Positions 7,655 to 62,494 of a stretch of DNA of 64,000 nt are shown here, piece after piece. Position 1 is the first letter of the stretch. Each line of letters begins with the position of its first letter. The translations under genes and the position numbers were made by a program. The stretch comes from Porphyromonas sp. COT-239 OH1446 (lineage in GTDB: Bacteria > Bacteroidota > Bacteroidia > Bacteroidales > Porphyromonadaceae): NCBI RefSeq assembly GCF_000768875.1, contig NZ_JRAO01000009.1, positions 1 through 64,000 on the forward strand. Direction: 5' to 3'. The notes under the pieces were generated by a model, which saw only the letters and a program-made list of their open reading frames with translations, was not told the origin of the DNA and did not search any database.

Positions 7655-8776
7655 CTAGGAGCAACTCAGAGGAGAAGCCTCCTGCTTGAGCCGCTCGGCC
7701 AGTAGCATGGTCTGCTCGAGGTAAGGAATGTCGCACGAGAGTAGAGGCGAGAAGTCCGACTTGCCTAGCTCTGAGAACAAGAGGTTGAAGCTCCACCACT
7801 TGCCTCTGATCGGCCTACAGTCGATGAGCAGCAGGTCGGGCTCGGGGATCTGGACAGTGTAGAGATAGACTACGAGGCGCATGCCTCCCTCCTCGGCATG
7901 GTACTGTAGCGATAGGTGTGGGCGAGCGCGGCGTACACCACAGAATCGCTCGTCTATGAGTCTCTGGGCGATCTCCTGCGGACGGTAGTCCTCGCAGACC
8001 CAATCGACGAAGGGGGTGTCATAACGCTCCTCGCCCGAGCACAACCCAGCCGTACGCTCGAGGTAGACCATCCCATGGCTGACGGCTACGAGGCGCACGA
8101 CAGAGAGTCGCCCCTGTGCCGAGGCAAACTGCGTCTGAGCAATGCGACCGATGGGGCGATTGTGATCGTCCAGGATGGTGAGCCATCGCTCGGCCCTAAG
8201 CCTGCGCTCCATCCACCGAAGATGTGTGCCCTCAAGGGTGTACATGGGCAGCATGAAGAGGGGTATGAACCACGAGAGTAGCACCTCGAGCAGCGGACTG
8301 CTCTCGAGCAAGGCTACAAGAGACCAACCTATGCCCGAGACGATACAGAAGTAGCGGAAGATGATCCGTCGGAAGCGTCTATGCTCGGCGAGCAAAGCTC
8401 TGAGGCGTCGCGTCCCGCAGCAGCTCTCGCCCTCGATCTCGGGTGAGAGGTCGCCTAGGCGTGTCATGAGGGCGAAGTTCGTAAGCCGTACGATGAGATA
8501 CAATCCTAGGCCTAGGAGCTGAGCCGAGAGGGTCGAGAGGGTAGGGGCAGACCATATACCTAGCCCCAGGGTAGGTGCGAAAATGAAGAAGACGATCCAC
8601 CAATAGCGTCGTGGTGTAATGGATAGAATGCTCGAGAGGAGCAGCAAGACGAGCACAACTATCTGTAGCTCGGGTGTGAGGGGCAGCAGTAGCACGAGGA
8701 GTGCTACTGGCAGTATGAGTAGATCTATACCTTGCCCGATGAGGGGCAGAGGGCGAAGTCGTTTCTGATGCGTCAT
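7655..8776 (-). CDS. Membrane protein with a degenerate Nudix-like C-terminal half
   Basis: A 373-aa protein. Residues ~1-195 hold about six hydrophobic segments (LLILPVALLVLLLPLT, IVVLVLLLLSSIL, YWWIVFFIFAPTLGLGIW, and others) with a cytoplasmic-looking CCGTRRLRALLAEHRRFRR loop. From ~200 a soluble part starts ILDDHNRPIGRI, like the first strand of Nudix/IDI-type domains, with a later helix YRPQEIAQRLIDERFCG where the Nudix box would sit. The catalytic RExxEE residues are absent (QRLIDER), so hydrolysis is doubtful. This likeness is my inference from pattern and needs a profile search. Its gene sits upstream of the M16 peptidase gene, about 200 bp apart. Confidence 0.5.
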   Translation of the reverse strand: MTHQKRLRPLPLIGQGIDLLILPVALLVLLLPLTPELQIVVLVLLLLSSILSITPRRYWWIVFFIFAPTLGLGIWSAPTLSTLSAQLLGLGLYLIVRLTNFALMTRLGDLSPEIEGESCCGTRRLRALLAEHRRFRRIIFRYFCIVSGIGWSLVALLESSPLLEVLLSWFIPLFMLPMYTLEGTHLRWMERRLRAERWLTILDDHNRPIGRIAQTQFASAQGRLSVVRLVAVSHGMVYLERTAGLCSGEERYDTPFVDWVCEDYRPQEIAQRLIDERFCGVRRARPHLSLQYHAEEGGMRLVVYLYTVQIPEPDLLLIDCRPIRGKWWSFNLLFSELGKSDFSPLLSCDIPYLEQTMLLAERLKQEASPLSCS

Positions 8777-8978: not shown

Positions 8979-9093
8979 GTCCTCAGAGGTTTCGATAGGA
9001 TCGCTGTAGAGGCTTAAGTAGGAGTTCGAGTGAGCTCCTATCTATACCTCGATTGAGTTCCTATTTGAGTCTCGATCGAGATCCAAATAGAGT
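8979..9093. repeat. 23-bp degenerate dyad repeat array, block A (about 5 units)
   Basis: Units begin at 8979, 9002, 9025, 9048 and 9071, exactly 23 bp apart. Each carries a CTC-N4-GAG-like element followed by a CCTA-N2-TAGG-like element; units 9048 and 9071 fit best (CTCGATTGAG, CTCGATCGAG). The first two units are weak. The same family occurs at 29082, 36348, 45530 and 54987. Confidence 0.75.
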
Positions 9094-9217
9094 CTTGTAT
9101 GGGGATATAGACGGGGACACATCCGCAATCTAGATAGCCGCTCCCTAAAACTATTGGGAGGGGGAAGCCTGGGGTGAGCTATAACCCTAGGCTAGAGGTC
9201 TCTGGGAGATATAGCTA

Positions 9218-9307: not shown

Positions 9308-9970
9308 CTAACGGGTGCTGAGGACGAACTGCAGCTCGATCTCGTCGTTGATAAACTTATCGGCAAGGTTGTCGAAGAACTTCTTCGAGCCATAGCGTAC
9401 ATTCCACTCCGAGCGATCGATCAAAAACTTCTTGCTACGGATCTGATACTTTTGAGTAGATTGATCCATTAGGACGTCTTCGATAGGGATGCTGATATTC
9501 TTGACAATACCCTTGAGTGTGAGATTTCCTTTGATCTCAGTGAGACCCAGCAGAGGAAGCCCCTCCTCGGGCAGATCTGTGAGTTCGAAGCGAGCCTTTG
9601 GATGCTGCGTTACATCGAAGAAGTCTTCACCCTCGAGGTGTGCCTTGAGCTTCTCTGCCATCTCACCCTCCAGATCGGTAACCTTGATACTTCCCATATC
9701 TACCTCGACGAAGCCCGAGACGAGCTTGTCCTCGTGCAGCTCGATCTGTCCGTCGCTCAATGCGATTGATCCATAATGCTCGCCTGCAGGCTTGAATCCC
9801 TTCCATAGGAGGGTCGAACCCTCAAGGTCTATGGGAGAAGTCCTGCTGTTTGAGGACGTAGACACGGGTTGCTGCTCCTGTGTAGCAGTCGTTTCCTTCT
9901 TGTTGCCAGAGCATGAGCTCAGGCTCAGTAGCCCTATCCCAAGGATGAGGGCGGTTAAGTTTTTATTCAT
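9308..9970 (-). CDS. YceI-like lipoprotein
   Basis: A 220-aa lipoprotein: the signal peptide ends in a lipobox (LLSLSSC, Cys at about 20), followed by a Ser/Thr/Gln-rich linker. From about residue 45 it has the YceI pattern: LEGSTLLWKGFKP, the strand VSGFVEVDMGSIKV, then HLEGEDFFDVTQHPKARFE, and a GNLTLKGIVKNISIPI strand near 150. YceI proteins are lipocalin-like barrels that bind isoprenoid-type lipids. It is probably anchored in the periplasm or outer membrane. It is transcribed alone, with a terminator downstream. The ligand is not known from sequence. Confidence 0.88.
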   Translation of the reverse strand: MNKNLTALILGIGLLSLSSCSGNKKETTATQEQQPVSTSSNSRTSPIDLEGSTLLWKGFKPAGEHYGSIALSDGQIELHEDKLVSGFVEVDMGSIKVTDLEGEMAEKLKAHLEGEDFFDVTQHPKARFELTDLPEEGLPLLGLTEIKGNLTLKGIVKNISIPIEDVLMDQSTQKYQIRSKKFLIDRSEWNVRYGSKKFFDNLADKFINDEIELQFVLSTR

Positions 9971-19340: not shown

Positions 19341-19397
19341 TCGTTAAGTGCTGGTATATAGTGTGTTGAGGAGGGGGGCGGAGAGGGCCAAATTTTC

Positions 19398-19639
19398 TTG
19401 CGGAAGAAAATATTTTTTCTTGCGGAAGAAAATTTATTTTCGTGCGCACGAAAAAATATTTCCTTGCGCACAGAAATTTTTGTCTCTGCGCAAGGCTCTT
19501 CGGGGGCTTGCTCACTCGTCCAATTTTTTGCCCGCAAGCAAGCGAATTTCCCTCCGCAAACAGGTCGATCTTTGTTCGCAAGCAAATCCAATTTTGTCCG
19601 CAGGCGAGTCGATCGCTTTCCGCAAACAAAAAGCCCCTT
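19398..19639. repeat. 22-bp degenerate direct-repeat array (11 units)
   Basis: Eleven units of exactly 22 bp start at 19398, 19420, 19442, 19464, 19486, 19508, 19530, 19552, 19574, 19596 and 19618. Each begins with a TTGCGC/TCCGCAAGCAA-like core and ends in an A/T-rich half. The first units are purine-rich (TTGCGGAAGAAAAT, twice), and later ones carry CGCAAGCAA or CGCAAACA. There are no unique spacers, so it is not a CRISPR. It sits between the convergent typA and efflux operons. Open frames across it exist on both strands but look like by-products of the repeat. Confidence 0.85.
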
Positions 19640-26490: not shown

Positions 26491-28824
26491 CTAACGCCAT
26501 AAATTCTTTACCTCAGAAGGAGTGTTGGTACTCCCTCTATCTTCAAATGAGCTAAATATTTTTAATTGAATGCAGGGAGCATTTAGTTTGTATCTCATTT
26601 CGATCTTAAGCTCGACACAGACTAATACATAATCCCCGAGATCTTCATTTCTATCATTCTCCAACTCTTTCTTTAACTCCTGATGCTGATTCAAGTCAAT
26701 GATGTTAGTGTAAATTCTATCCTCTTCATCAATGCTTTTTAACCCATATCTCGAAATGGTGTCTTTGTTGGTCTTTTCGTGTCTTATCAATGGCATATCT
26801 GCTTTTCTGAGAACGAGCATAGAGACTCCCATCCATTCATTGCTATCAATACATATGATCCTCATACCTTTGTAACTCCACTCTTTTCCTCCCTCTCCCT
26901 CCTCCAAATTTGTTATGCCTGATGCTAGGAAAAATGGAAGATTTACCCCCATGGCAACGATAATGAATTGTTCGGGATCAAGATTCAGACGGTCGATAGC
27001 GTTGAAGACATCCTTCGTTTGCAGTACGTATTTTTCTGCGGACATTAGCTGAAATCCATTAGATAGAGACCTGGATATATTCAAGGCAATTTGTTCGGCG
27101 GTAATGGTATCTACCTCTCCGTATCCAATTCCTTGACTTTCCCCGAAGGCTTCCTTCTTTACGAGGATATTGCCCCCCCCAATAAATAATGAGTGTTCTT
27201 TACTTGATGAATGTTCATTACTTGGAGTTGTAGGATTAGTTTCATCTCTAGATATTTGGGAGCAGAATTTAAGTACTGGGCCTAGTATCTCTTTTGTAGA
27301 TTGCTTGAATCTTTCAACCTTTTGACTATCCAACGATTGAGTTCTTTGGATCTCCTCCTTGGTTCTATTGACAGACTCCTGGAGTTCGTCAATTAGGTCG
27401 TTTGGGAGCTTTTTCTCTCTCTCTCGAAACCAGTCGTCTGAGCACAGATCAGATAGCCCAAGTTCGGATAAGAGATCTTTGTCTTTACGAATATCATTGA
27501 TAAGCTGTCTTAGCTCGTCAAGCCCCTCTTCCCAATACCTCAGTTTGTGCAGGTCTTTGGGAGGAGTTAGTAGTTTTAGTCGGGGTGGGAATAGACCAAC
27601 CTCTCCCACTAGGGTATATTGTCGGAGGAAGAGTACCCCGAGATAATACTTGATCCACCTTGGAATACTCTCAAGAGTATCTCCAAAAGGAGCATCCATG
27701 TCTGGGTGTTGGTAGTTTCTTGCGTAATAAAAAGGGTCCTGTTCTAAACGTTCGGATGTTGCCATGTATTGATCAATCACATCCTCTAGGCTCTCGGGAA
27801 CAAGGACGTACTTGGGGGGGATTTGCTTAGAATATCTTAAAATTTTCCGCAGTAATTTGTGTTTTCTCAGATACATCAATAGCCCCCCGAGGGCATAGTG
27901 GAGTTCTAGAAAAGCTTTTTGTGCTTTCTCCCTCTCAGCCCTATTTTCTTCGTTGGCCTCACCGCCACTATGATCCATGTTTGTATGAAGCAGAGTAAGA
28001 TCATAAAATTGATGTGCTACCGTCCAATATGACATGATGTAGTCCTCTTTGTCGTAGGATAGAGCTTGTAAAATACACTTCCAAATAAAGATGTTGGTTT
28101 GGGGACTCATGATTGTTCTCTGATGTTGATCCAAGACCAATTCCACAAAAAAAGATGCATTCCAAAGGGAGATCTTTTTCCTTTTTCGTTGGCAGACCAT
28201 TTCATTCGCAGCAAACATGGAGTTATAGTACTCTTGTGGATATTCAATGATGCTTCCTCGTCGTTCTTCTCGATAACGGATGATAGCCCTATAATAAAAT
28301 TCTTGTAAAAACCGACTTAGCTCCTCATCGTCTTTTTGTATCGCATAAAAGAGAAGGTCAGATATACTAGTGAAGAAAAGAATTTTCTCCTTCTTATTCG
28401 TGCTCGAGTCGTGTCTTTTTTCTAAGTGCTGAGAGAGCTTGAGTGGATGGTAGAAGACATATATTTGATAGGCAATTGCAAATGTGAGGATAAGCAAAGC
28501 TGCTAACGAAACCACGAGTAATATCAAAGCTGAATGATCAACCCATTCGTTGAGAAAGCCTAATTCGATACATCTTGGTAGTTGTAGCATCCAAAAGATG
28601 CATCCAGCGATTAGTATCACTAAAGACCCAATGTAGCAGCGAGTAATCCATTCTCTCCTAATAAAAGTATCGACTAGTCTTGTTGAGCCATATTTGTCAT
28701 CAATTCGAGTTATCGTTTGCAGTAACAGAGGGAAAGCGATTGCTAGTATGGCTGTGCCCATTGGTAGAACTACCTCCTTGACAATGTCAGGGTAGTTCGC
28801 AAATAATACTTCTAAAGTCTTCAT
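26491..28824 (-). CDS. Unrecognised 777-aa membrane-anchored protein, AT-rich
   Basis: I do not recognise a family. Three hydrophobic segments are clear: ~17-37 (VVLPMGTAILAIAFPLLLQ), ~62-82 (YIGSLVILIAGCIFWML) and ~95-122 (ALILLVVSLAALLILTFAIA). About 650 mostly cytoplasmic residues follow, rich in helices and charged residues, with a Ser/Thr/Asn-rich linker near 535 and a compact beta-containing domain from ~550 (IVAMGVNLPFFLASGI, MRIICIDSNEWMGVSMLVL). Base composition and codon use are far more AT-rich than in every neighbour, suggesting horizontal transfer. The gene stands alone with its own promoter and has C7 and G8 tracts inside. A defence or surface-signalling role is possible but unsupported. 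Confidence 0.75.
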   Translation of the reverse strand: MKTLEVLFANYPDIVKEVVLPMGTAILAIAFPLLLQTITRIDDKYGSTRLVDTFIRREWITRCYIGSLVILIAGCIFWMLQLPRCIELGFLNEWVDHSALILLVVSLAALLILTFAIAYQIYVFYHPLKLSQHLEKRHDSSTNKKEKILFFTSISDLLFYAIQKDDEELSRFLQEFYYRAIIRYREERRGSIIEYPQEYYNSMFAANEMVCQRKRKKISLWNASFFVELVLDQHQRTIMSPQTNIFIWKCILQALSYDKEDYIMSYWTVAHQFYDLTLLHTNMDHSGGEANEENRAEREKAQKAFLELHYALGGLLMYLRKHKLLRKILRYSKQIPPKYVLVPESLEDVIDQYMATSERLEQDPFYYARNYQHPDMDAPFGDTLESIPRWIKYYLGVLFLRQYTLVGEVGLFPPRLKLLTPPKDLHKLRYWEEGLDELRQLINDIRKDKDLLSELGLSDLCSDDWFREREKKLPNDLIDELQESVNRTKEEIQRTQSLDSQKVERFKQSTKEILGPVLKFCSQISRDETNPTTPSNEHSSSKEHSLFIGGGNILVKKEAFGESQGIGYGEVDTITAEQIALNISRSLSNGFQLMSAEKYVLQTKDVFNAIDRLNLDPEQFIIVAMGVNLPFFLASGITNLEEGEGGKEWSYKGMRIICIDSNEWMGVSMLVLRKADMPLIRHEKTNKDTISRYGLKSIDEEDRIYTNIIDLNQHQELKKELENDRNEDLGDYVLVCVELKIEMRYKLNAPCIQLKIFSSFEDRGSTNTPSEVKNLWR
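27173..27180. repeat. Homopolymer of eight C (G8 in the coding strand) inside the 777-aa gene
   Basis: Encodes the Gly-Gly-Gly of FIGGGNI at about residues 549-551. A gain or loss of one base would truncate the C-terminal ~225 residues. A run of seven G in the plus strand (about 27814-27820) lies in the same gene. Confidence 0.9.
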
Positions 28825-29081: not shown

Positions 29082-29335
29082 CCTCCGATGGGTCTCTATC
29101 CCTCTTCGTGGAGCTTCTACTTATATCTCTCTAGAGGCTCAAGATTGGGTCTCGCTTGAGCTCCTACTTAGACCTCTGTTGCGATCCTATTTGGATCTCA
29201 CTTGAGCTCCTATTTGGGTCTCTCTTGAGCTCCTACTTAGATCTCTATTGCGATCCTATCGGCATCTCAGGGACAGCCCTAGATAGGGGCTCACCCGAGA
29301 GCTTATCGAGACCTCGGCCGAGGGCCTACTGGGGA
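29082..29335. repeat. 23-bp degenerate dyad repeat array, block B (about 11 units)
   Basis: Well-formed units start at 29151, 29174, 29197, 29220, 29243, 29266 (24 bp), 29290 and 29313; weaker units precede at 29082, 29105 and 29128. The units alternate a CTCnnTTGAG-like and a CCTAnTTNG-like element (for example CTCACTTGAGCTCCTATTTG). This is the longest copy of the family. Confidence 0.85.
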
Positions 29336-29418
29336 CTATCTTGACCTTGGACGAGAGCCCCACTCGAGAGCTAGAGGGCTTGCCCCGTGAGGGCGTTGGC
29401 TCTTTGGCATAATAGCAG

Positions 29419-34689: not shown

Positions 34690-36195
34690 ATGGCTTCGAC
34701 CTTCCGCTCCCTCCTCCAAGACACTGCCGTCTACGGGCTCAGCAGTATGTTAGGTCGCTTCCTCAATTGGATGCTGACCTTCGTCTATGTCCGTGTCTTG
34801 CTCGAGCAGGAGATGGGGCAGATGACCCATCTATATGCCTGGACGGCTGTACTGCTTATCCTCTTGACCTATGGGATGGAGACGACCTTCTTCCGCTTTG
34901 CTAGCAAGCACGATGAACCCGAGCGTGTACTCGGATCGACACTTTGGACACTGGGGATTAGCTCTTCCGCCTTCGTCCTCCTGGGCATCTTGACCTCGGA
35001 GACGGTCGCTCCACTCTTAGGGCAGCCCGACGCCCCAGAGCTCGTGATGATGCTGGTAGGTATCGTGGCCCTGGATGCCTTCACTGCTATCCCGTTGGGC
35101 TATCTGCGCTACCAGCGTCGGCCCTGGTGGTTCATGACGGTGCGGATGAGCTTTATCCTCTTGACCATCAGCTTGACCCTCGGTGTCTTCTACGGCTTGC
35201 CCCTCCTGGAGGCTACCTTCCCCTCGATCTTCGCGGGCTGGTATCGTCCCGAGCATCATCTGCATTACATCCTCGGCATCAATCTCCTGGGCAATCTTGT
35301 CCAGTTAGGTCTCCTCCTGCCCACAATAGCTCAGGGGCGAGGAGGACTCGATACCAAGCTTCTCAGACCTATGCTCTCCTATGCCTGGCCCATCCTCCTG
35401 TTGGGTCTTGTGGGGACACTCACGAATCAAGCCGACAAGCTCCTCCTGCCCCATCTCTTCGATGATAGGCTCGAGGCCGATCGGCTGCTTGGGATCTATG
35501 GGGCTTCGTACAAGCTGGCAGTGATCATGGTGCTCTTCACCCAAGCTTTCCGCTATGCCTATGACCCCTTCGTCTTCGCCAAGAGCAGAGACTCGGACGA
35601 GGCTGCACGCAGGGCTTATGCCGATGCTATGAAGTATTACCTCATTACGGCTCTAGTGATCATGCTGGCCGTCATGGCTTACCTGGATGTGATCAAGCTG
35701 CTCATCCCCGAGAGCTATTATAGTGGCCTGGTCGTCGTGCCCTACATCATGGTGGGGCAATTGATGTTCGGCCTATACTCGAACCTCTCTATATGGTTCA
35801 AGCTAACGGATCAGACGCATTGGGGGGCGATCCTCTCCTGTATTGGCTGCCTCCTGACTGTGGGAGTTATCTACTTCCTCACGCCTGTGATTGGCTTCGA
35901 GGCTTGCGCCTATGCCTCGGTGGTGGCCAATGGGGCGATGATGATACTCTCTTACCTCCTCGGACGAAGGTATTACCCCGTCCCCTACGAGCTCCCTCGG
36001 ATGGGCCTCTATGCGGCCATCACGTTGGGCAGCCTCATCCTCCTAGCTCTGATCCGTCGCTATACCCCCGATCTTCTGTGGGTGCGTCTGCCCCTGGGGA
36101 CGCTGATTCTGCTGCCTCTCTTGCTGACGCTCCTTCGTCTCGAGGTGCATGTGCCTGCCCTCAAAAGAGCTGTGCATAAGCTATTGCGTCGCTAA
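34690..36195 (+). CDS. Polysaccharide/lipid-linked sugar flippase (MOP superfamily, Wzx-like)
   Basis: A 501-aa integral membrane protein with about 14 hydrophobic helices in two bundles. The start LLQDTAVYGLSSMLGRFLNW is typical of polysaccharide-exporter (PST) flippases, as is the central SYAWPILLLGLVGTLTNQADKLLL. It probably moves an undecaprenyl-linked saccharide or lipid II-like molecule across the inner membrane. No glycan genes adjoin it, so the substrate is not evident. It is co-oriented with ruvB, 33 bp downstream, and likely in the same operon. Confidence 0.85.
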   Translation: MASTFRSLLQDTAVYGLSSMLGRFLNWMLTFVYVRVLLEQEMGQMTHLYAWTAVLLILLTYGMETTFFRFASKHDEPERVLGSTLWTLGISSSAFVLLGILTSETVAPLLGQPDAPELVMMLVGIVALDAFTAIPLGYLRYQRRPWWFMTVRMSFILLTISLTLGVFYGLPLLEATFPSIFAGWYRPEHHLHYILGINLLGNLVQLGLLLPTIAQGRGGLDTKLLRPMLSYAWPILLLGLVGTLTNQADKLLLPHLFDDRLEADRLLGIYGASYKLAVIMVLFTQAFRYAYDPFVFAKSRDSDEAARRAYADAMKYYLITALVIMLAVMAYLDVIKLLIPESYYSGLVVVPYIMVGQLMFGLYSNLSIWFKLTDQTHWGAILSCIGCLLTVGVIYFLTPVIGFEACAYASVVANGAMMILSYLLGRRYYPVPYELPRMGLYAAITLGSLILLALIRRYTPDLLWVRLPLGTLILLPLLLTLLRLEVHVPALKRAVHKLLRR

Positions 36196-36347: not shown

Positions 36348-36530
36348 CGCCATCGAAGCACAAGTAGGCCCTCGAGTGAAGTCTACTTAACCCTCGACCG
36401 AACTCCTACTTAGACCTCCATCGAGATCCTATCTGAGCCTCGAGTGGAGTCCTACTTAACCCTCTGCGGAGGTTCTAGATAGGCCCTCTATCGAGTCTCT
36501 ATCGAGTCCTCCGTCGAGCTCTCCCCGAGC
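36348..36530. repeat. 23-bp degenerate dyad repeat array, block C (about 8 units)
   Basis: Units start at 36348, 36371 (22 bp), 36393, 36416, 36439, 36462, 36485 and 36508. The best ones read CTCGACCGAACTCCTACTTA, CTCCATCGAGATCCTATCTG and CTCGAGTGGAGTCCTACTTA. The last two units have lost the CCTA-N2-TAGG half. Confidence 0.85.
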
Positions 36531-36693: not shown

Positions 36694-37029
36694 ATGGACA
36701 ATACAAGAATGAGTCGCATCAATCGACTAATACAAAAAGAGATCAGTGAGATCTTTCGAGAACAAACTAAGGCAATGCCTGGGGTTATCGTCTCGGTTAC
36801 TTCGGTTACGGTGAGCCCCGATCTAGGTATTGCTCGCATTCGCCTGAGCATCTTCCCCAGCGATCGAGGCGAGGAGCTTCTAGCGAATATCCGAGACAAT
36901 GCCAAGGCGATCCGCTATGCCCTCGGACAGCGGGTACGGACACAGCTGCGCAAGATCCCTGAGGTGAGCTTCTTCATTGATGATTCTCTCGATTATCTCG
37001 AGCGTATCGACAGTCTGCTGCAACGATAA
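36694..37029 (+). CDS. rbfA: Ribosome-binding factor A
   Basis: A 111-aa KH-like protein that binds the 30S subunit and helps mature the 16S rRNA 5' end. Motifs: RMSRINRLIQKEISEIF at the start, then TVSPDLGIARIRLSIFPSD and the closing VSFFIDDSLDYLERIDSLL, which is typical of RbfA. Length is normal. It is followed 15 bp later by the LolC/E-like permease, an arrangement common in Bacteroidales. Confidence 0.93.
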   Translation: MDNTRMSRINRLIQKEISEIFREQTKAMPGVIVSVTSVTVSPDLGIARIRLSIFPSDRGEELLANIRDNAKAIRYALGQRVRTQLRKIPEVSFFIDDSLDYLERIDSLLQR

Positions 37030-43409: not shown

Positions 43410-45401
43410 ATGAAAAAGATAATAGGTAAAACCCTCATTGCGGTTGTAGGTCTTGGTATCCTCAGCGCAACTTCGTGCCAGCGTCTGGACGATGTCCTAG
43501 ACCGCAAGCCTCTCGACCAGGTAGGCCCTGATGTATTCTACTCCACTGCGGAGCAACTCAATAGCTTCAATATGAATATGTATGGGGTATTCCCCAACTA
43601 TGCAGGCTCTTGGGGTGCAGGTATTGCTACTAGGGATAATGGGACGGACAACCAAGCGGCTATCGATCCCAATAGGGCTATGTTCTCCAATGATCACTGG
43701 AAGGTGTCGGCTACAGGCGGTTTGGGTTTCAATACGATCCGCAGCATTAACTGGTTCCTCTCAGACGTTACGACCAAGGACAAGGCTGGTAAGATCTCTG
43801 GAGACCGTAATCTGATCAATCAGAACCTGGGTGAGGCCAAGTTTTTCCGTGCATACCTCTACTTCGATAAGCTGCGTAGCTTCGGAGATTATCCGATCAT
43901 TACCGAGCCGTTGCCCGACGACGAAGCAGTACTTGTAGAGAATGCTAAGCGTATGCCTCGCAACCAGGTGGCACGCTTCATCCTCAAGGAACTTGACGAG
44001 GCTATTGCTCTGCTGCCTGCACAGACAAATATGAAGCAGCGCATTAACAAGGATGTAGCTCGTCTGTTCAAGAGCCGGGTAGCACTCTTCGAAGCAACCT
44101 TCGAGCTCTATCATAAGGGCTCTGGACGTGTGCCTGGGGATGCTAACTGGCCTGGTAAGGATAAGGAATGGAATAAGGGCAAGACTTTCGACCAAGCCTC
44201 TGAGGTCAATTTCTTCCTCGATGAGGCTATGAAGGAGTCTAAAATGGTTGCAGATGCCTACCCACTAGTTGCCAGCACGGACAAGACAAACCCCATTCTA
44301 GGTGGCAAGCCTAACGGTTGGAATCCCTACTATGACCTCTTCGCTTCTGTAAATCCATCAGGCTTCTCCGAAGTATTGCTTTGGAGGCAGTATGGCAAGG
44401 CGGTTCAACTCGTACATCACTCCTCCGAGCGCATGCGCACTGGTACGCAGACGGGTTGGACTCGTGGTTTGGTAGAGAGCTTCCTTATGAGCGATGGTAA
44501 GCCTCGCTATGCTTCTCCTACTCTCAATCAAGGTGATGAGACGATATCCAAACTCAAGGATAATAGTGATCTGCGCTTGCGGCTCTTCATCTTCGCCGAT
44601 GGCGATCTTCAGAATTTGGATGGTGTAAATCCTATCTTCCAGTTCGCATCCCTCATCGAGAAGCCCGAAATACGTGAGAGCACGGGCTATCGTCAGCGTA
44701 AGGGGTACAACTATGACCCCGATATGGTTGGTACGGGACAGAAGGACGAGACTGCGCTCATCCTCTTCCGCAGTGCTGAGGCTTACCTCAACTATATCGA
44801 GGCATCTTATCTGAGGAAGAATACTCTCGATGCCGATGCCAAGAAGTACTGGACGGAGCTCCGTCGTCGTGCTGGTATCACGGCCGAGATCGAAGTAACC
44901 ATCAATGCTACTGACATGGGTACAGAGGCTAAGCTCGATCGTCCCTCCTATGACTGGGCAGCATTCTCGGCTGGTACGCCTATTGACGCCACGCTCTATA
45001 GTATCCGCCGTGAGCGTCGTAGCGAGTTCGCTGGCGAAGGCTTCCGTATGGATGACCTCATCCGCTGGAGAGCTATGGATCAGGTGCGAAACTACCAGAT
45101 CGAAGGGATGAACTTCTGGACTTCTGCCTACAAAGATCCCTCCTTCTCTGGGGTGATCGCTGATGGGGGTGCTCAGTCTGTTCTCTCAAGCAAGGATCTA
45201 GGTGTTTACCTGCGTCCTTATCAGAAGATCAAGGCCAACAACGATATGTACGACGGCTATACTTTCTGGCAGGCACACTACCTATCGCCTTTCTCTGTAG
45301 AGGAGCTTCGTCTCTGCTCTCCTACCAAGGATGAGAATAACTCTAACCTATACCAGAACCCAGGGTGGCCAACCGTAGGTGATGGTAAGGCTCTTCACTA
45401 G
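43410..45401 (+). CDS. SusD/RagB-family outer membrane lipoprotein
   Basis: A 663-aa lipoprotein, substrate-binding partner of the SusC protein. The lipobox is SATSC (Cys about residue 23), followed by LDDVLDRKPLDQVGP, a typical SusD start. Middle motifs include NQNLGEAKFFRAYLYFD and GLVESFLMSDGKP, and the SusD C-end reads FRSAEAYLNYIEA and RRERRSEFAGEGFRMDDLIRW. The length exceeds classical SusD (about 550) but is within the family's range. It begins 29 bp after the SusC gene and is followed by a strong terminator, so the operon has two genes. Confidence 0.92.
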   Translation: MKKIIGKTLIAVVGLGILSATSCQRLDDVLDRKPLDQVGPDVFYSTAEQLNSFNMNMYGVFPNYAGSWGAGIATRDNGTDNQAAIDPNRAMFSNDHWKVSATGGLGFNTIRSINWFLSDVTTKDKAGKISGDRNLINQNLGEAKFFRAYLYFDKLRSFGDYPIITEPLPDDEAVLVENAKRMPRNQVARFILKELDEAIALLPAQTNMKQRINKDVARLFKSRVALFEATFELYHKGSGRVPGDANWPGKDKEWNKGKTFDQASEVNFFLDEAMKESKMVADAYPLVASTDKTNPILGGKPNGWNPYYDLFASVNPSGFSEVLLWRQYGKAVQLVHHSSERMRTGTQTGWTRGLVESFLMSDGKPRYASPTLNQGDETISKLKDNSDLRLRLFIFADGDLQNLDGVNPIFQFASLIEKPEIRESTGYRQRKGYNYDPDMVGTGQKDETALILFRSAEAYLNYIEASYLRKNTLDADAKKYWTELRRRAGITAEIEVTINATDMGTEAKLDRPSYDWAAFSAGTPIDATLYSIRRERRSEFAGEGFRMDDLIRWRAMDQVRNYQIEGMNFWTSAYKDPSFSGVIADGGAQSVLSSKDLGVYLRPYQKIKANNDMYDGYTFWQAHYLSPFSVEELRLCSPTKDENNSNLYQNPGWPTVGDGKALH

Positions 45402-45529: not shown

Positions 45530-45759
45530 CTTGATTGAGATCCTGATAGAGCCCTCATCGAGGTTTCGGGTGGGGTCCGGGTGAGCTCTCGAGGGGAATG
45601 TCCTAGAGCTCTCACTCGCTCCTAAGTTGAAGGCTCGGTAGGGCCTCATTGGAGATCCAAGTAGGATCGCATTGGAGACTCAGATAGGATCTCGATCGAG
45701 GGTTAAGTAGGATCTCCGTTGAGGTGTCAGTTGAACCTCTGTCGAGTGCCTATTCAGAT
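45530..45759. repeat. 23-bp degenerate dyad repeat array, block D (about 10 units)
   Basis: Best units start at 45645, 45668, 45691, 45714 and 45737, each 23 bp (CTCATTGGAGATCCAAGTAG, CTCGATCGAGGGTTAAGTAG). Weaker ones lie at 45530, 45553, 45576, 45599 and 45622. Here the TAGG arm is better kept than the CCTA arm. Confidence 0.8.
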
Positions 45760-45978: not shown

Positions 45979-46800
45979 ATGAGCAACCCTATCGAGATCG
46001 ATATTGCCCAGGTCGTCGAGGCCAAGAGTGGCAAGAAACTTCCCCGCTGGATTGCCAGGCTGCTACAACGCCTCATTCACGAGCGAGAGATTAATGACAT
46101 CCTCAAGCGACATAGCGACAAGGAGGGTGTTGCTTTCTTTCGTGCCCTGCTGCAGGATCTCAGCGTCCAGGTACGCTGGCGCAACCCTGAGGCCCTGCCC
46201 GAGCATGGACGATATCTCTTCGTCTGCAATCACCCCCTCGGGGCAATAGATGGGGTAGGCCTCTCGTTGCTCCTAGCTGAGCGTTATGGCGATGTGCGCT
46301 ATCTGGTCAATGATATGCTCTACAACCTCAGACCCCTGCGCTCGATCTTCTTGCCTGTGAATACCTACGGAGCGCAGCGCAGAGAGTCGGTGGCCATGCT
46401 CCAAGAGGCGATGCAGAGCGATCTGCCCATCGGGACGTTCCCAGCGGGTTATTGCTCTCGACACCTTGCGGGTCGAGTGCAGGATCGGGACTGGCACAAG
46501 AGCTTCATCCACTTGGCCACGACCTACCAGCGGGATATTGTCCCCCTGCACTTCGTCGGGCGCAACTCTCGGCACTTCTACCTCGTCGATCGTCTGCGCC
46601 GCAGGCTAGGGATTCGGTTCGACCTCTCAACGGCTCTGTTGCCTGACGAGATGTTTCGTACCCGAGGCCGCAGCTTCGAGATCATCGTCGGCTCACCCAT
46701 CCCCTGGCAGGAGGTTGCCCAGTGGGAGGGCTCTGCCCACGCTCAGGCTCAGCGTATTCGCTCTCTGAGCTATGCCCTGGCCACCGAGCTTCGCCCCTAG
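45979..46800 (+). CDS. PlsC-like O-acyltransferase, GlsA type (aminolipid synthesis)
   Basis: A 273-aa acyltransferase. The catalytic His-Asp region reads CNHPLGAIDGVGL (~residues 76-88), followed by FLPVNTYGAQRRESV and FPAGYCSRHL, the last probably the acyl-acceptor loop. No transmembrane helix is strong; it is membrane-associated. In Bacteroides, glsA makes the O-acyl link of glycine lipids and glsB the N-acyl link; the gene after this one is the GlsB-like partner, which supports that pathway. Lysophosphatidic acid acylation is the alternative. Start and end are well defined. Confidence 0.72.
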   Translation: MSNPIEIDIAQVVEAKSGKKLPRWIARLLQRLIHEREINDILKRHSDKEGVAFFRALLQDLSVQVRWRNPEALPEHGRYLFVCNHPLGAIDGVGLSLLLAERYGDVRYLVNDMLYNLRPLRSIFLPVNTYGAQRRESVAMLQEAMQSDLPIGTFPAGYCSRHLAGRVQDRDWHKSFIHLATTYQRDIVPLHFVGRNSRHFYLVDRLRRRLGIRFDLSTALLPDEMFRTRGRSFEIIVGSPIPWQEVAQWEGSAHAQAQRIRSLSYALATELRP

Positions 46801-52960: not shown

Positions 52961-53983
52961 CTATTCCATCATCAGCTCCATGGATAGTGGATGCTCGTGG
53001 GCAAGTCGCTCTACCAGTGTCGAGAGGGACATGGGCTTGGCCTCAGGCTCTCGGGTGGGGCTGTAGCGTATGCCGCTAGGGGTGATGAGGTACGAACCAG
53101 TATTGGCGGCGATGAGGTCATCCTCGATATAGGCGTGGAGCTCTGTCTGCCCCTTGCTGCCTGTCCAATGCTCCAGGAGGGGGAGTAGGCGTAGAGGACG
53201 AAGCATTCCCTTGGGTTGCCATAGGGTAGGGGTGTGGCTTCGGACAGGGTGGATGAGCCTAAGGCTGCGGCCCTCGGCTCTACGGCGAAGCTCCTGGAGG
53301 AGCTCCTCTCGGTGATAGGCGAAGCCATAGAGGGCTCTGAGCTCGAGAGCCTCGTCGCTCATGAGGTAGAAGGCTACCCCCGTGATCGAGCCCTCACGAT
53401 CCCGCTCGATGAGCGTATGGCTCACCTCGGCGAGGGAGTAGTCGGCGAGGACGGCCTCCCACTGCGCTCGGCTGTGGCGAATGCTATGGCCCTTGCTCTC
53501 CGCCTCACAGAGTATGAGGAAGTCGATCAGCTCCGAGGCCCTCACCCCTATCGTATCGCTCTCGTCGAGGTTGTGGCTGAGCTCGAAGAAGAAGGCCGTC
53601 CCGTAGCCGAAGCCCTTGCGGTAATAGGTGTAGAGGCTCTCTGAGGCTGGGATGAGGAAGCTGGCCACATCGCCCCGCTCGTGCATGAGCCTAAGGGCTC
53701 GGCGCATGAGGTGCTGCATCTCGCCCTGCCCTCGATACTCGGGCAGGGTGCAAGCCCCTGAAATATAGCCTACTGGGAGGGTCTCGCCCGATAGGGCAAG
53801 GCTATAGGTTGGTAGACCGACGTGGCTGATAGCTTGGCCGCTCTCGGGATCATAACCCAGGAGCGTCTCCTCGTCTCGATAGATTCTGTCGAAGTACATT
53901 TCGACGAAGGGCCGAGGGTCTTCGAAGCAGGTACTCCAGAGCCGCTTCGCCTCGCTTCGCTTGCTGTCGCACTTAGCTCTCAT
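52961..53983 (-). CDS. Eis-like GNAT acetyltransferase
   Basis: About 340 aa from the ATG at 53983 (MRAKCDSKRSEAKRLWSTCF), which overlaps the previous gene's end by 11 bp; the frame upstream is antisense to that gene's reading and unlikely. The acetyl-CoA site is VGYISGACTLPEYRGQGEMQHLM (R/Q-x-x-G-x-G variant), followed by the FLIPASESLYTYYRKGFGYG strand. A C-terminal half after ~150 with a second GNAT-like and a small SCP-like part is typical of the Eis family. Substrate unknown. It forms an operon with the DUF2156 protein upstream. Confidence 0.8.
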   Translation of the reverse strand: MRAKCDSKRSEAKRLWSTCFEDPRPFVEMYFDRIYRDEETLLGYDPESGQAISHVGLPTYSLALSGETLPVGYISGACTLPEYRGQGEMQHLMRRALRLMHERGDVASFLIPASESLYTYYRKGFGYGTAFFFELSHNLDESDTIGVRASELIDFLILCEAESKGHSIRHSRAQWEAVLADYSLAEVSHTLIERDREGSITGVAFYLMSDEALELRALYGFAYHREELLQELRRRAEGRSLRLIHPVRSHTPTLWQPKGMLRPLRLLPLLEHWTGSKGQTELHAYIEDDLIAANTGSYLITPSGIRYSPTREPEAKPMSLSTLVERLAHEHPLSMELMME

Positions 53984-54884
53984 GGTGCAGGACGGCGGTG
54001 TCTTTGTAGAGCAACATGTCGGGTTTGTAGGAGAGCTTGGCCTGTCTGAGACCTTCGATCCCGAGATCTTCCTCTCGATTGACGTAGGTGTACTGCTCGG
54101 GGATGCGGCGGGCAAACTCTCGATTGATCATGGTGAAAGCTCCCTCGTAGGCACGGTCTGCCTTCTCGATATGCACGCCAAAGGTGCTCTGATTGATTGG
54201 AGAGCCGACGGCAAAGGCAATGATTCGTCCATCCACCCGCAGAGCTCCGCCCATGAGTTCCAGCTCATCGAAGGCTGAGAAGACGCGCTCGATCATTCTG
54301 AGCTCCGATGTCCGTCCCTCACCTGCTCCGTGCTCGTCGAACCAGCTGCGTTCGACCGCTAGGCATTCCTCGATATTATTTCGGCTGATCGGCTCGTAGC
54401 TGTAGTTGGGATATAGTCGCTCGAAGCGGTTGATGTGGTTGCGTTTGGACTGTAGAGCCTTGCCCGAGAGGCTAGCCAGTCGCTCTCGTAGGTAGACATA
54501 GTCTCGGCTGCCCTCGTTGCTGGTGAAGCGAAACATCCCTGGGCAGGAGGTCTCGAGAGCCTCTCGGCACTGTGGAGCAACGCCCATGAGTACGAGGGGA
54601 TAGCCCTCTGCCTCAGATATACGGCGCAACTCGGTCATGGCGACTGAGAGGTTACACCCCTCGCCCCCGACGGGCATGAGGTAGGTGGGATGGTTGCGCA
54701 AGGGGGACTGGAAACGGATGACTAAGGTGTCTCGGACAATAGCCCAACTGGTGCCGTAATGCTCGCCCCAACCGTAGAGGTTGCAGAATGCTAGATCGCA
54801 GATGCGAGATGATCCGTTGAGGGTAAATCGTGTAATCTCTGCCCGATCCGCAAGGGAAACGGGCTTGAATATAATTGAATCCAT
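53973..54884 (-). CDS. DUF2156 protein, aminoacyl-phosphatidylglycerol synthetase-like C-terminal domain
   Basis: A 303-aa protein of the DUF2156 group (the soluble C-terminal domain of MprF/LysX-like lysyltransferases). Motifs: KRNHINRFERLYPNY, ECLAVERSWFDEHGAG, GVHIEKADRAYEGAFTMIN and the C-terminal YVNREEDLGIEGLRQAKLSY, a GNAT-like double fold. There is no membrane domain, so it may transfer an amino acid or peptide to a soluble or membrane-surface acceptor, which is inferred. It overlaps the Eis-like gene by 11 bp, indicating co-translation. Confidence 0.82.
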   Translation of the reverse strand: MDSIIFKPVSLADRAEITRFTLNGSSRICDLAFCNLYGWGEHYGTSWAIVRDTLVIRFQSPLRNHPTYLMPVGGEGCNLSVAMTELRRISEAEGYPLVLMGVAPQCREALETSCPGMFRFTSNEGSRDYVYLRERLASLSGKALQSKRNHINRFERLYPNYSYEPISRNNIEECLAVERSWFDEHGAGEGRTSELRMIERVFSAFDELELMGGALRVDGRIIAFAVGSPINQSTFGVHIEKADRAYEGAFTMINREFARRIPEQYTYVNREEDLGIEGLRQAKLSYKPDMLLYKDTAVLHHES

Positions 54885-54986: not shown

Positions 54987-55147
54987 TTAGCTGAGAGCCT
55001 ATGGACCTCTTCGGTGCGCCCCTAGATGGGGCTGCTCTTGCGCTCCTACTTGGGTCTCTATGGAGGTCTAAGTAGGACTTCGATCGAACTCCTATCTGAG
55101 TCTCACCTGCGATCCAATTAGGATTATAGGTGAGACCCTATCGAGGT
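54987..55147. repeat. 23-bp degenerate dyad repeat array, block E (about 7 units)
   Basis: Units start at 54987, 55010, 55033, 55056, 55079, 55102 and 55125, all 23 bp. Examples: CTCTATGGAGGTCTAAGTAG and TTCGATCGAACTCCTATCTG. It occupies the region upstream of the DUF2156 gene (minus strand) and ends about 50 bp before the stop codon of the PH-domain gene. Confidence 0.8.
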
Positions 55148-55195
55148 CTTTGATACCTCTCTGACCTTTCTGTTAATAAGTTGATTACAAGCTCT

Positions 55196-56725
55196 CTATC
55201 TCTCGATGAGGTAGAGAGTATGGTCTTGGATGTGGCGGGCCTCCTCGAGCGAGGCGAAAGGGATGCTGAACGTCTCGCTCATGGTGTCGATCTTGAGGGT
55301 ACAGCGACCCGAGCGACGCTGCATGGGGGTCTGAGAGAGAGTCAGCCTCTCGATACGCCTCAGAGCGATCCAGCTCTCTATCTGTGCTATCCGCCCATGA
55401 TAGACGCATAGATGTGTCGAGGTAAGCACTAGACGACGATGGTAGTAGGCCCCTCGTGTAGCCCCGAGGGCTAGGAGGAGCGTCGGCAGGAGCAGAATTC
55501 CCCATTCGATGACCTCGGTGAACCACATCACCCCGAAGGCTAGGCCATGCAGCACGAGGCATCCGCCGACGTAGAGGGAGAGCATGCGTCGATTGGGGCG
55601 TAGCTCCTCGAGGGGCTCGGTATCGATGCCCCACCAGCGGTAGAGCCGGGCACGCTCTCGCCAGCCGTAGAGCAGTAGTCCACCCTGTGCCTCTTTCTCC
55701 CCCTGCTTGCCTGCATTGCTTGCCTGTGTGATGCGCAGGCTCGAGAGTCCGAGAAGATGTTCGATGGGGTTGGTCTTCAGGCTGAGGAATACGATCTGGC
55801 TCGAGCGGATGCGTCGGTGAATGCTAGCGATGAGCCCTGCCGAGAGCTCCAGGCGGTCTGAGTAGAGGTCAACCCGTGCCCCCCACTGGCGCAGCACCTG
55901 GGGGATAGACCACAGCACCACGAGGATGAGGTAGAGTACGGCCACGACCTGTAGTACAGACCAGGGGCTGAGGTTGCCCTCGCTCCACTCCTCGACAGTG
56001 CTCTGAGCAAAGGTCTCCGATATGCGAACGAGTACCTTGTCGCCGAAGAGCTCGAGGAGGTCATCGCCCAGGGCCAGCAGCGAGGTGATGAGTAGAGATA
56101 TGGCACGGACGTGGCTCTGAGACAGTGCCCCGAGCAGATGATCTCGCCTGGTGAGCGAGATGCTCCCGAGGGTGGCCTCGCCCTCCTGGATCTCTGCGCC
56201 TCGAGAGATCTCTCCGTCCGTCGTCTCGACCTCGGGAGCGTGTAGCTCCCTCTCCTCTAGACCGATGTAGTTGCGCAGGGCCTTTGCCTCGGCTTCGGTT
56301 AGGATGAGGGTGATCTCGGCCTCGTTGGTCGCTGTTGAGTCGATGCTGATATACTCCATATCGACCAGGCGATAGAATAGATTGCTGCGAGAGGAGATGT
56401 TGTGAATGCGGTCGATGGGGATGCTCTGGTGCTTGCGCGCGAGGCTTAGCACCCTCTGCTCGGTGTGTATCATCCCGTCAGCAATGTGGAAGCGGAAGCT
56501 GAAATACTTGACCAGCGTAGAGATGATGTAGAGGGCGAAGATGACAAAGGTGAGGATGCTCAGGGCATCCCATTTGATCTGTCCGTCGTTGAGTATTGCC
56601 CGGGCAATAGCCACGCCGGAGAGCGTGAGGATGGCGCGCAGTGAGCCCTTGACGTTTTCCCACAGGAGCACGACGAGGGCTGCGCCCCCCATACGTCTAG
56701 GTCGGGAGAAATCAATGGGTTTCAT
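55196..56725 (-). CDS. Bacterial PH-domain membrane protein (YdbT-like)
   Basis: A 509-aa membrane protein with bPH_2 domains and about six hydrophobic helices: an N-terminal pair (~18-60), a pair near 205-275 and a pair near 390-425 (LHGLAFGVMWFTEVIEWGILLL). The bPH_2 modules appear as HIADGMIHTEQRVLSLARK...IPIDRIHNISSR, YSDRLELSAGLIASIHRR...IRSSQIVFLSLK, and SFIGRI-like HLCVYHGRIAQIESWIALRRIERLTLSQ. These proteins are common in pairs with a smaller PH protein, here encoded just upstream (14-bp overlap). Their function is not well known. Confidence 0.82.
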   Translation of the reverse strand: MKPIDFSRPRRMGGAALVVLLWENVKGSLRAILTLSGVAIARAILNDGQIKWDALSILTFVIFALYIISTLVKYFSFRFHIADGMIHTEQRVLSLARKHQSIPIDRIHNISSRSNLFYRLVDMEYISIDSTATNEAEITLILTEAEAKALRNYIGLEERELHAPEVETTDGEISRGAEIQEGEATLGSISLTRRDHLLGALSQSHVRAISLLITSLLALGDDLLELFGDKVLVRISETFAQSTVEEWSEGNLSPWSVLQVVAVLYLILVVLWSIPQVLRQWGARVDLYSDRLELSAGLIASIHRRIRSSQIVFLSLKTNPIEHLLGLSSLRITQASNAGKQGEKEAQGGLLLYGWRERARLYRWWGIDTEPLEELRPNRRMLSLYVGGCLVLHGLAFGVMWFTEVIEWGILLLPTLLLALGATRGAYYHRRLVLTSTHLCVYHGRIAQIESWIALRRIERLTLSQTPMQRRSGRCTLKIDTMSETFSIPFASLEEARHIQDHTLYLIER

Positions 56726-59044: not shown

Positions 59045-59121
59045 GGCTCCGTAGCTCAACTGAATAGAGCATCTGACTACGGATCAGAAGGTTACAGGTT
59101 TGAATCCTGTCGGAGTCACCA
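59045..59121 (+). tRNA. tRNA-Arg (anticodon ACG)
   Basis: A 77-nt cloverleaf with encoded CCA. Acceptor stem GGCTCCG pairs with CGGAGTC; the anticodon stem TCTGA/TCAGA encloses CTACGGA, giving anticodon ACG. The T arm ACAGG TTTGAAT CCTGT is canonical. ACG reads CGT/CGC/CGA after deamination of A34. Start and end are exact from the pairing. Confidence 0.95.
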
Positions 59122-62189: not shown

Positions 62190-62440
62190 TCGGGATAATG
62201 CAACCCCTCGGCACTCCCTGGCGTAGGAGGGGACGGGTTGTTGCTTTCCTCGAAGCATAGAAAGGCTTTGCAGGTCTTCTGGCTTATGGCCGTCGGTGCG
62301 CTCCCTTCCCAGAGACACAGAACCTCCAGTGGCTAATTGAGCGAACCTACCTGTAGACCAAATACAGCAGCGGGACTGCTCGAGACTCTCACTCGTATTC
62401 CCTTTTAAGCCAAGGCCCTCGAGAGGCTTTAGACTCATCG
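62190..62440 (-). promoter_or_regulatory. Cobalamin (B12) riboswitch
   Basis: On the minus strand the canonical parts occur in order: TTAAAAGGGAA (62399-62410), GCAGTCCCGCTGCTGTA (62363-62379), GCCACTGG (62326-62333), GGGAAGGG (62300-62308) and the B12 box AAGCCAGAAGACCTGC (62270-62285). This matches the cobalamin aptamer core including the B12 box consensus. Exact ends are estimated. It has its own good promoter upstream. The next gene downstream is glgP, 300 bp away with its own -7 box, so its regulatory target is not evident. Confidence 0.9.
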
Positions 62441-62463
62441 AGAACTTTGGCACAAAGCCGCAG

Positions 62464-62494
62464 CAAATGTAACCATAATCTGATACATAGACAA
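62464..62494 (-). promoter_or_regulatory. Promoter of the cobalamin riboswitch transcript
   Basis: On the minus strand TTG (62492-62494) and TACATTTG (62464-62471) are spaced by 20 bp. Transcription would start near 62457, just before the aptamer. Confidence 0.72.

Follow-up and report, generated by a model that had tools for sequence, protein, structure and literature searches.

Rows of 23-bp near-palindromic units upstream of promoter-like elements in Porphyromonas sp. COT-239 OH1446: putative sites for a DNA-binding protein

The 64,000 nucleotides of Porphyromonas sp. COT-239 OH1446 analysed here (the window) contain five blocks of a degenerate 23-bp unit repeated without spacers, which raise the question of whether they are rows of protein-binding sites, as a first-pass annotation had proposed, or the product of some other process. 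The window was scored with a weight matrix for a 19-bp box, built from 238 units at 35 other loci of the same genome with the window excluded; it recovers exactly five arrays and no more (Table 1). The same matrix finds no array in 60 Markov shuffles of the window, so the arrays are real, and their appearance in shuffled sequence, which the annotation had named as counting against them, did not occur. Single boxes scoring above 11 bits number 27 in the window, two of them inside called genes, against a shuffle mean of 3.9. Called genes occupy 53,931 of the 64,000 bases, and none of the five arrays overlaps a gene called by coding score, as had been claimed for every block. A motif-blind lag detector found four of the five arrays and missed the one at 55040, where the boxes alternate in orientation. 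The extents of the blocks held up less well: there is an array at each of them, but the strong cores are shorter and the outer parts weak or irregular. The matrix scores eight boxes at 29111-29315 in the second array, and irregular CTC/GAG dyads lie beyond the third.

Table 1. Arrays and other features in the window
Feature	Position	Strand	Spacing (bp)	Context
Array, 5 boxes	8986-9096	none	23	Co-directional gap, 7655-8776(-) / YceI gene 9308-9970(-)
Array, 8-9 boxes	29111-29338	none	23, plus one 47 and one 24	Divergent gap, 26491-28824(-) / CbiK-like gene (called start 29495, +)
Array, 4 boxes	36355-36464	none	45, 23, 23	Co-directional gap, 34690-36195(+) / 36694-37029(+)
Array, 5 boxes	45629-45739	none	23	Co-directional gap, SusD gene 43410-45401(+) / acyltransferase gene 45979-46800(+)
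Array, 5 boxes alternating in orientation	55040-55150	none	23	Co-directional gap, LPG_synthase_C gene 53973-54884(-) / bPH_2 gene 55196-56725(-)
Second array family, 22-bp palindromes	19392-19494			Convergent gap
tRNA gene (Rfam)	59045-59118	+
Cobalamin riboswitch (Rfam)	62252-62466	-

The unit is a 19-bp near-palindrome, approximately GAGnTCCTAyTTrgAyCTC, followed by four free bases; the consensus of the 418 units counted after iterative refinement of the alignment is GAGATCCTATTTAGATCTC and then four bases. The arms GAGnTCC and rgAyCTC mirror each other around an asymmetric core, TAYTT. The two-dyad description in the annotation therefore needs revision: its second dyad exists and is centred in the box, although CCTA-N2-TAGG approximates it only roughly given the asymmetric core, but CTC-N4-GAG is simply the joint between two adjacent boxes. 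Adjacent boxes occur in either orientation, and the box has GAG- and GCG- subtypes, with GCG beside GCG being rare (12 of 220 neighbour pairs). Of 407 spacings, 366 measure 23 bp and four measure 22 or 24 bp, with a slight bias towards these steps because two or more spacings of 22-24 were required to call an array; the near-strict period is thus borne out. A step of 23 bp is, however, closer to 2.2 turns of B-DNA than to the two helical turns first suggested.

Information per position varies from 1.48 bits (the A at place 8) down to 0.03 bits at the first spacer base, and it is the length of the spacer that is fixed, its letters being free. At the four unconstrained positions, which look saturated, adjacent units share an identity of 0.350 and units of different loci one of 0.353; at constrained positions the value is 0.86-0.88, whether the units compared are up to four places apart or come from separate loci, and 0.818 once they lie at least five places apart. 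Units two apart reach 0.494 at the free positions, compared with 0.353 between loci, which together with the rarity of GCG beside GCG points to a 46-bp pairing and indicates that duplication in 46-bp pairs also acts.

BLAST with the array at 29 kb found nothing in 20 relatives but 46 matches in this genome; merging these left 35 places outside the window. A sequence-only model, with 150 of 1602 candidates scored, gave at least 207 matches, and a hand count among the model matches listed added at least 57 further places; 40 of these were fetched, and all 40 hold an array, the other 17 being counted from the model match alone. The known array places in the genome thereby come to at least 97 by hand count, with the five in the window included.

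Placement was examined for 80 arrays, none of which overlaps a called gene. They lie in 42 divergent, 32 co-directional and one convergent gap, with five at edges, and the row is upstream of a gene start in 74 of the 75 that could be placed. The BLAST-chosen set (23 divergent, 9 co-directional, 1 convergent) is more divergent than the model-chosen set (18, 19 and 0, respectively). Convergent gaps in this genome are mostly short (13 of 16 sampled are below 150 bp), and the scarcity of arrays there may partly reflect lack of room. Start codons lie a median of 208-221 bp from the edge of the row. Between the two, the motif TAnnTTTG, which we take to be the Bacteroidetes -7 element, points at the gene in 86 of 115 intervals and occurs on the other strand in nine. 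It is present on both sides in 30 of the 42 divergent gaps, and is absent from the arrays themselves (none in 12,441 bases in this genome, where chance would give only a few). Array-free upstream gaps also often carry the motif (21 of 41). The row edge lies a median of 133 bp from it, 64-310 bp at the 5th to 95th percentiles, and closer than 50 bp in only two of 91 cases.

Arrays of other genomes show a similar bias of TAnnTTTG to the gene side (50 of 69, versus 9; for genome G022 alone 17 of 22, versus 2), with 13 occurrences inside arrays in 8,543 bases, and 7 of 61 lie in convergent gaps, the gap classes resembling background. Among 30 genomes, an array lies upstream of the orthologous acyltransferase gene in five and of the LPG synthase gene in 11; our rough estimate is that about five in 30 such gaps would have an array by chance, so array position is at best weakly conserved.

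We propose that the arrays are probably rows of sites for a putative sequence-specific DNA-binding protein, placed just upstream of promoters. What would be expected of such rows, namely position-specific constraint, fixed spacing and free spacer letters, is what the alignment contains. A protein, probably dimeric, would fill neighbouring 19-bp boxes at the fixed 23-bp step; binding would be cooperative, so that a row could cover roughly 100-250 bp just upstream of promoters and serve there as a control element or a barrier. Because rows lie at variable distances from the promoter-like element, a barrier or long-range role suits the data better than an activator working at a fixed distance. 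The idea of a protein covering consecutive sites has a parallel in Streptomyces BldC, which is reported to form cooperative multimers on direct repeats (PMC5859096); the sites here differ in being 19-bp dyads every 23 bp.

The strongest competitor derives from the genus itself. BrickBuilt, known to us only from P. gingivalis and P. gulae, is described as a MITE with a minisatellite and IS5-type ends, present in 19 copies (8 of 19 without leader, tail or both), with promoter activity of leader and tail, and with the consensus AGAYCATARTATCCTCTCRTRTG (PMC4596501). It has in common with the present arrays the intergenic 23-bp imperfect tandem units without spacers and the box GAG-N13-CTC plus four bases, and TACT is seen by eye at the same place in the box in this genome, in G027 and on the BrickBuilt reverse strand; the suspicion in the annotation that similar repeats might be known in Porphyromonas was thus right as regards layout (PMC4596501). 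The arrays could then be a degenerate BrickBuilt-like MITE minisatellite, spread by an IS5-type transposase and expanded by slippage with no function of its own, and the greater likeness of units two apart, as in higher-order copies, would fit. With up to two mismatches, however, the BrickBuilt consensus has no match in this genome, and among 38 family genomes it matches in G025 and G010 only. We take G025 to be P. gingivalis ATCC 33277 and G010 to be P. gulae. Instead of 19 copies there are at least 97 known places, and the arrays of this genome are not generally framed by a leader and a tail that carry IS5-type terminal inverted repeats; IS5-type 12-mer ends are not enriched near them (10 in 83,019 bases, versus 17 in 98,800). 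No similar flank was detected elsewhere for 150 of 164 array flanks, although 14 resemble flanks at other loci, so that an origin in mobile-element remnants, which the annotation had listed against itself, is countered by the lack of general mobile-element ends but not for every flank. Free positions are, moreover, no more alike in adjacent units than between loci, whereas constrained ones stay alike. We therefore consider the arrays a variant that shares the layout of BrickBuilt, with neither its consensus nor its ends, rather than BrickBuilt itself, and a functionless MITE origin unlikely. The loci sharing flanks outside the 23-bp units (mainly L076, L079, L084, L087, L088, L106 and L291) are perhaps a further repeat family or mobile remnant.

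Other readings are less probable still. Palindrome rows of the REP/BIME kind might serve DNA topology, recruiting gyrase or absorbing supercoils between transcription units. REP/BIME elements are interspersed intergenic palindromes, as the arrays are, and 42 of the 75 placed arrays lie between divergent promoters, where supercoils of opposite origin meet; to our knowledge, however, a fixed 22-23-bp tandem step, as tight as the 23 bp seen here, is foreign to such elements. Y1_Tnp (PF01797), the transposase domain linked to REP elements, is absent from this genome and present in one of 12 congeners searched, yet it occurs in seven of eight order relatives. We reject a REP/RAYT assignment on that absence, and regard a topological role as improbable. 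That transcribed rows act as hairpins (terminators, attenuators or stabilisers) is very improbable. The near-palindromic boxes could fold, and the palindrome structure pairs in 64.4% of cells against 22-49% for slid versions, but any palindromic consensus would give the same. Mirrored positions do not compensate for each other (nine pairs, no positive z above 1.4, one strongly negative), and 489 of 500 shuffles score at least as high in arm covariation as the observed alignment. No Rfam family matches the arrays, the matches in the window being a cobalamin riboswitch and a tRNA gene, and the position of the rows is upstream of promoter-like elements, not at the ends of genes; we reject an RNA structure for lack of compensatory changes in paired positions and of an Rfam family. 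A CRISPR array was also rejected, as the boxes are 4 bp apart and are not split by long unique spacers. As improbable as the hairpin reading, in our judgement, is a mutational by-product, in which a replication or repair process of the family duplicates and perfects palindromes of about 22 bp without selection. Such a process would account for a single step length shared across the family by many unit sequences unrelated to one another, but constraint within the unit is uneven, from nearly free to strongly constrained positions, and the consensus is kept across some 80 inspected loci, so selection or another sequence-specific force is needed.

Free and constrained positions together with the fixed step and uncorrelated arms favour sites in double-stranded DNA over hairpins; once placement and the mostly unlike flanks are added, slippage and a mobile element also fit less well than rows of protein sites. 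The preference of the annotation for protein sites over RNA or peptide coding is partly supported, through the constraint pattern, the fixed step and the arms without covariation, and remains the best reading.

Does this organisation extend to relatives? A scaffold search for (GAG-N13-CTC-N4) x3 with at most two mismatches in 38 family genomes gave 340 matches in this genome, 188 in G025, 59 in G022, 23 in G027 and 22 in G010; seven genomes have one match each and 26 none, and the reversed control gave at most two. The five carriers are not one clade in an rpoB tree of 30 genomes. Their boxes vary, being GAGGTATCCTCGTAACCTC and the like in G022 and GAGGCGCTACTGCTACCTC in G027. With TACT added, the scaffold is found over 149 genomes of the order only in this genome, plus one local 23-bp minisatellite, GAGTTACTACTCCCTACTCCGGG, in G117 of another family of the order (contig 9, 15044-15223; L373, L375). 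In the open-licence literature we found BrickBuilt, and no report of such arrays in other species.

The motif-blind detector (66-bp windows, at least 56% identity at lags 14-45) gives a broader view. It was applied to 44 stretches from 20 genomes of the genus, chosen by contig number and round coordinates rather than at random, with six short stretches omitted (L149, L150, L156, L157, L162 and L166; 500-3,038 bases). There were 50 intergenic arrays, 39 at lags 21-24 and seven at 42-45, and 16 of the 20 sampled genomes have at least one array stepping 21-24 bp; the samples of G005, G009, G029 and G031 have none at lags 21-24 or 42-45. All four sister-genus genomes have arrays of this step as well (13 arrays in total, seven at lags 21-24 and six at 42-45). 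In eight genomes of the order that belong to other families, 33,568 intergenic bases held two arrays, one with a lag of 23, and a control of 65 loci from other phyla, taken from a genome-contig scan with a transporter protein of the window, gave 39 arrays, of which four are at lags 21-24. Unit sequences differ from species to species, and dyad symmetry of the folded unit is significant (p<0.05) in 34 of 46 arrays in the genus, 8 of 13 in the sister genus and 2 of 22 in other phyla, where 22 of the 39 arrays (lags 16-34) entered the test; the two order arrays were left out. Stretches upstream of two orthologous genes have lags mostly of 22, 23 or 43-45, with four at 16, 18 and 33.

The lag histogram and dyad test, on these samples, support a wider reading that we hold only tentatively, and think somewhat less probable than its negation: the genus and sister genus may have a new class of element, rows upstream of promoters for DNA-covering proteins with quickly changing specificity. 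The geometry (21-24 bp, often paired as 44-46 bp) would be kept family-wide and the sequence replaced in each species, some genomes having two or more sequence families, and BrickBuilt would be one species' version. Relatives might, more speculatively, have homologous or analogous proteins that recognise other sequences, keeping the step of about 22 bp while replacing the site sequence. Since there are several array families per genome, one protein would not explain all of them. What the present genome adds is a further species with the BrickBuilt layout, here without mobile-element ends, in promoter-upstream DNA at no fewer than 97 places. Were the arrays read by a protein family, they would amount to a substantial level of gene regulation or chromosome organisation that has gone unrecognised, and the fast change of sites could be used to study protein-DNA co-evolution.

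We note several further repeats. MITE464/PgRS of P. gingivalis resembles the arrays as a tandem repeat in intergenic DNA of the genus, but its 41-bp step and its sequence are different (PMC4596501). Tandem arrays of 41 bp at L216:6583 (G025) and L152:3021 (G005) are likely PgRS/MITE464 repeats. A second array family in the window consists of 22-bp palindromes around TTTCnTGCGCAnGAAA; six loci of the genome carry this motif, for the most part in 22-bp arrays, and their gap classes vary. In G024, a near-perfect 22-bp array (L359, approximately 980-1302 on the reverse strand) lies upstream of the LPG synthase gene and possibly expanded recently.
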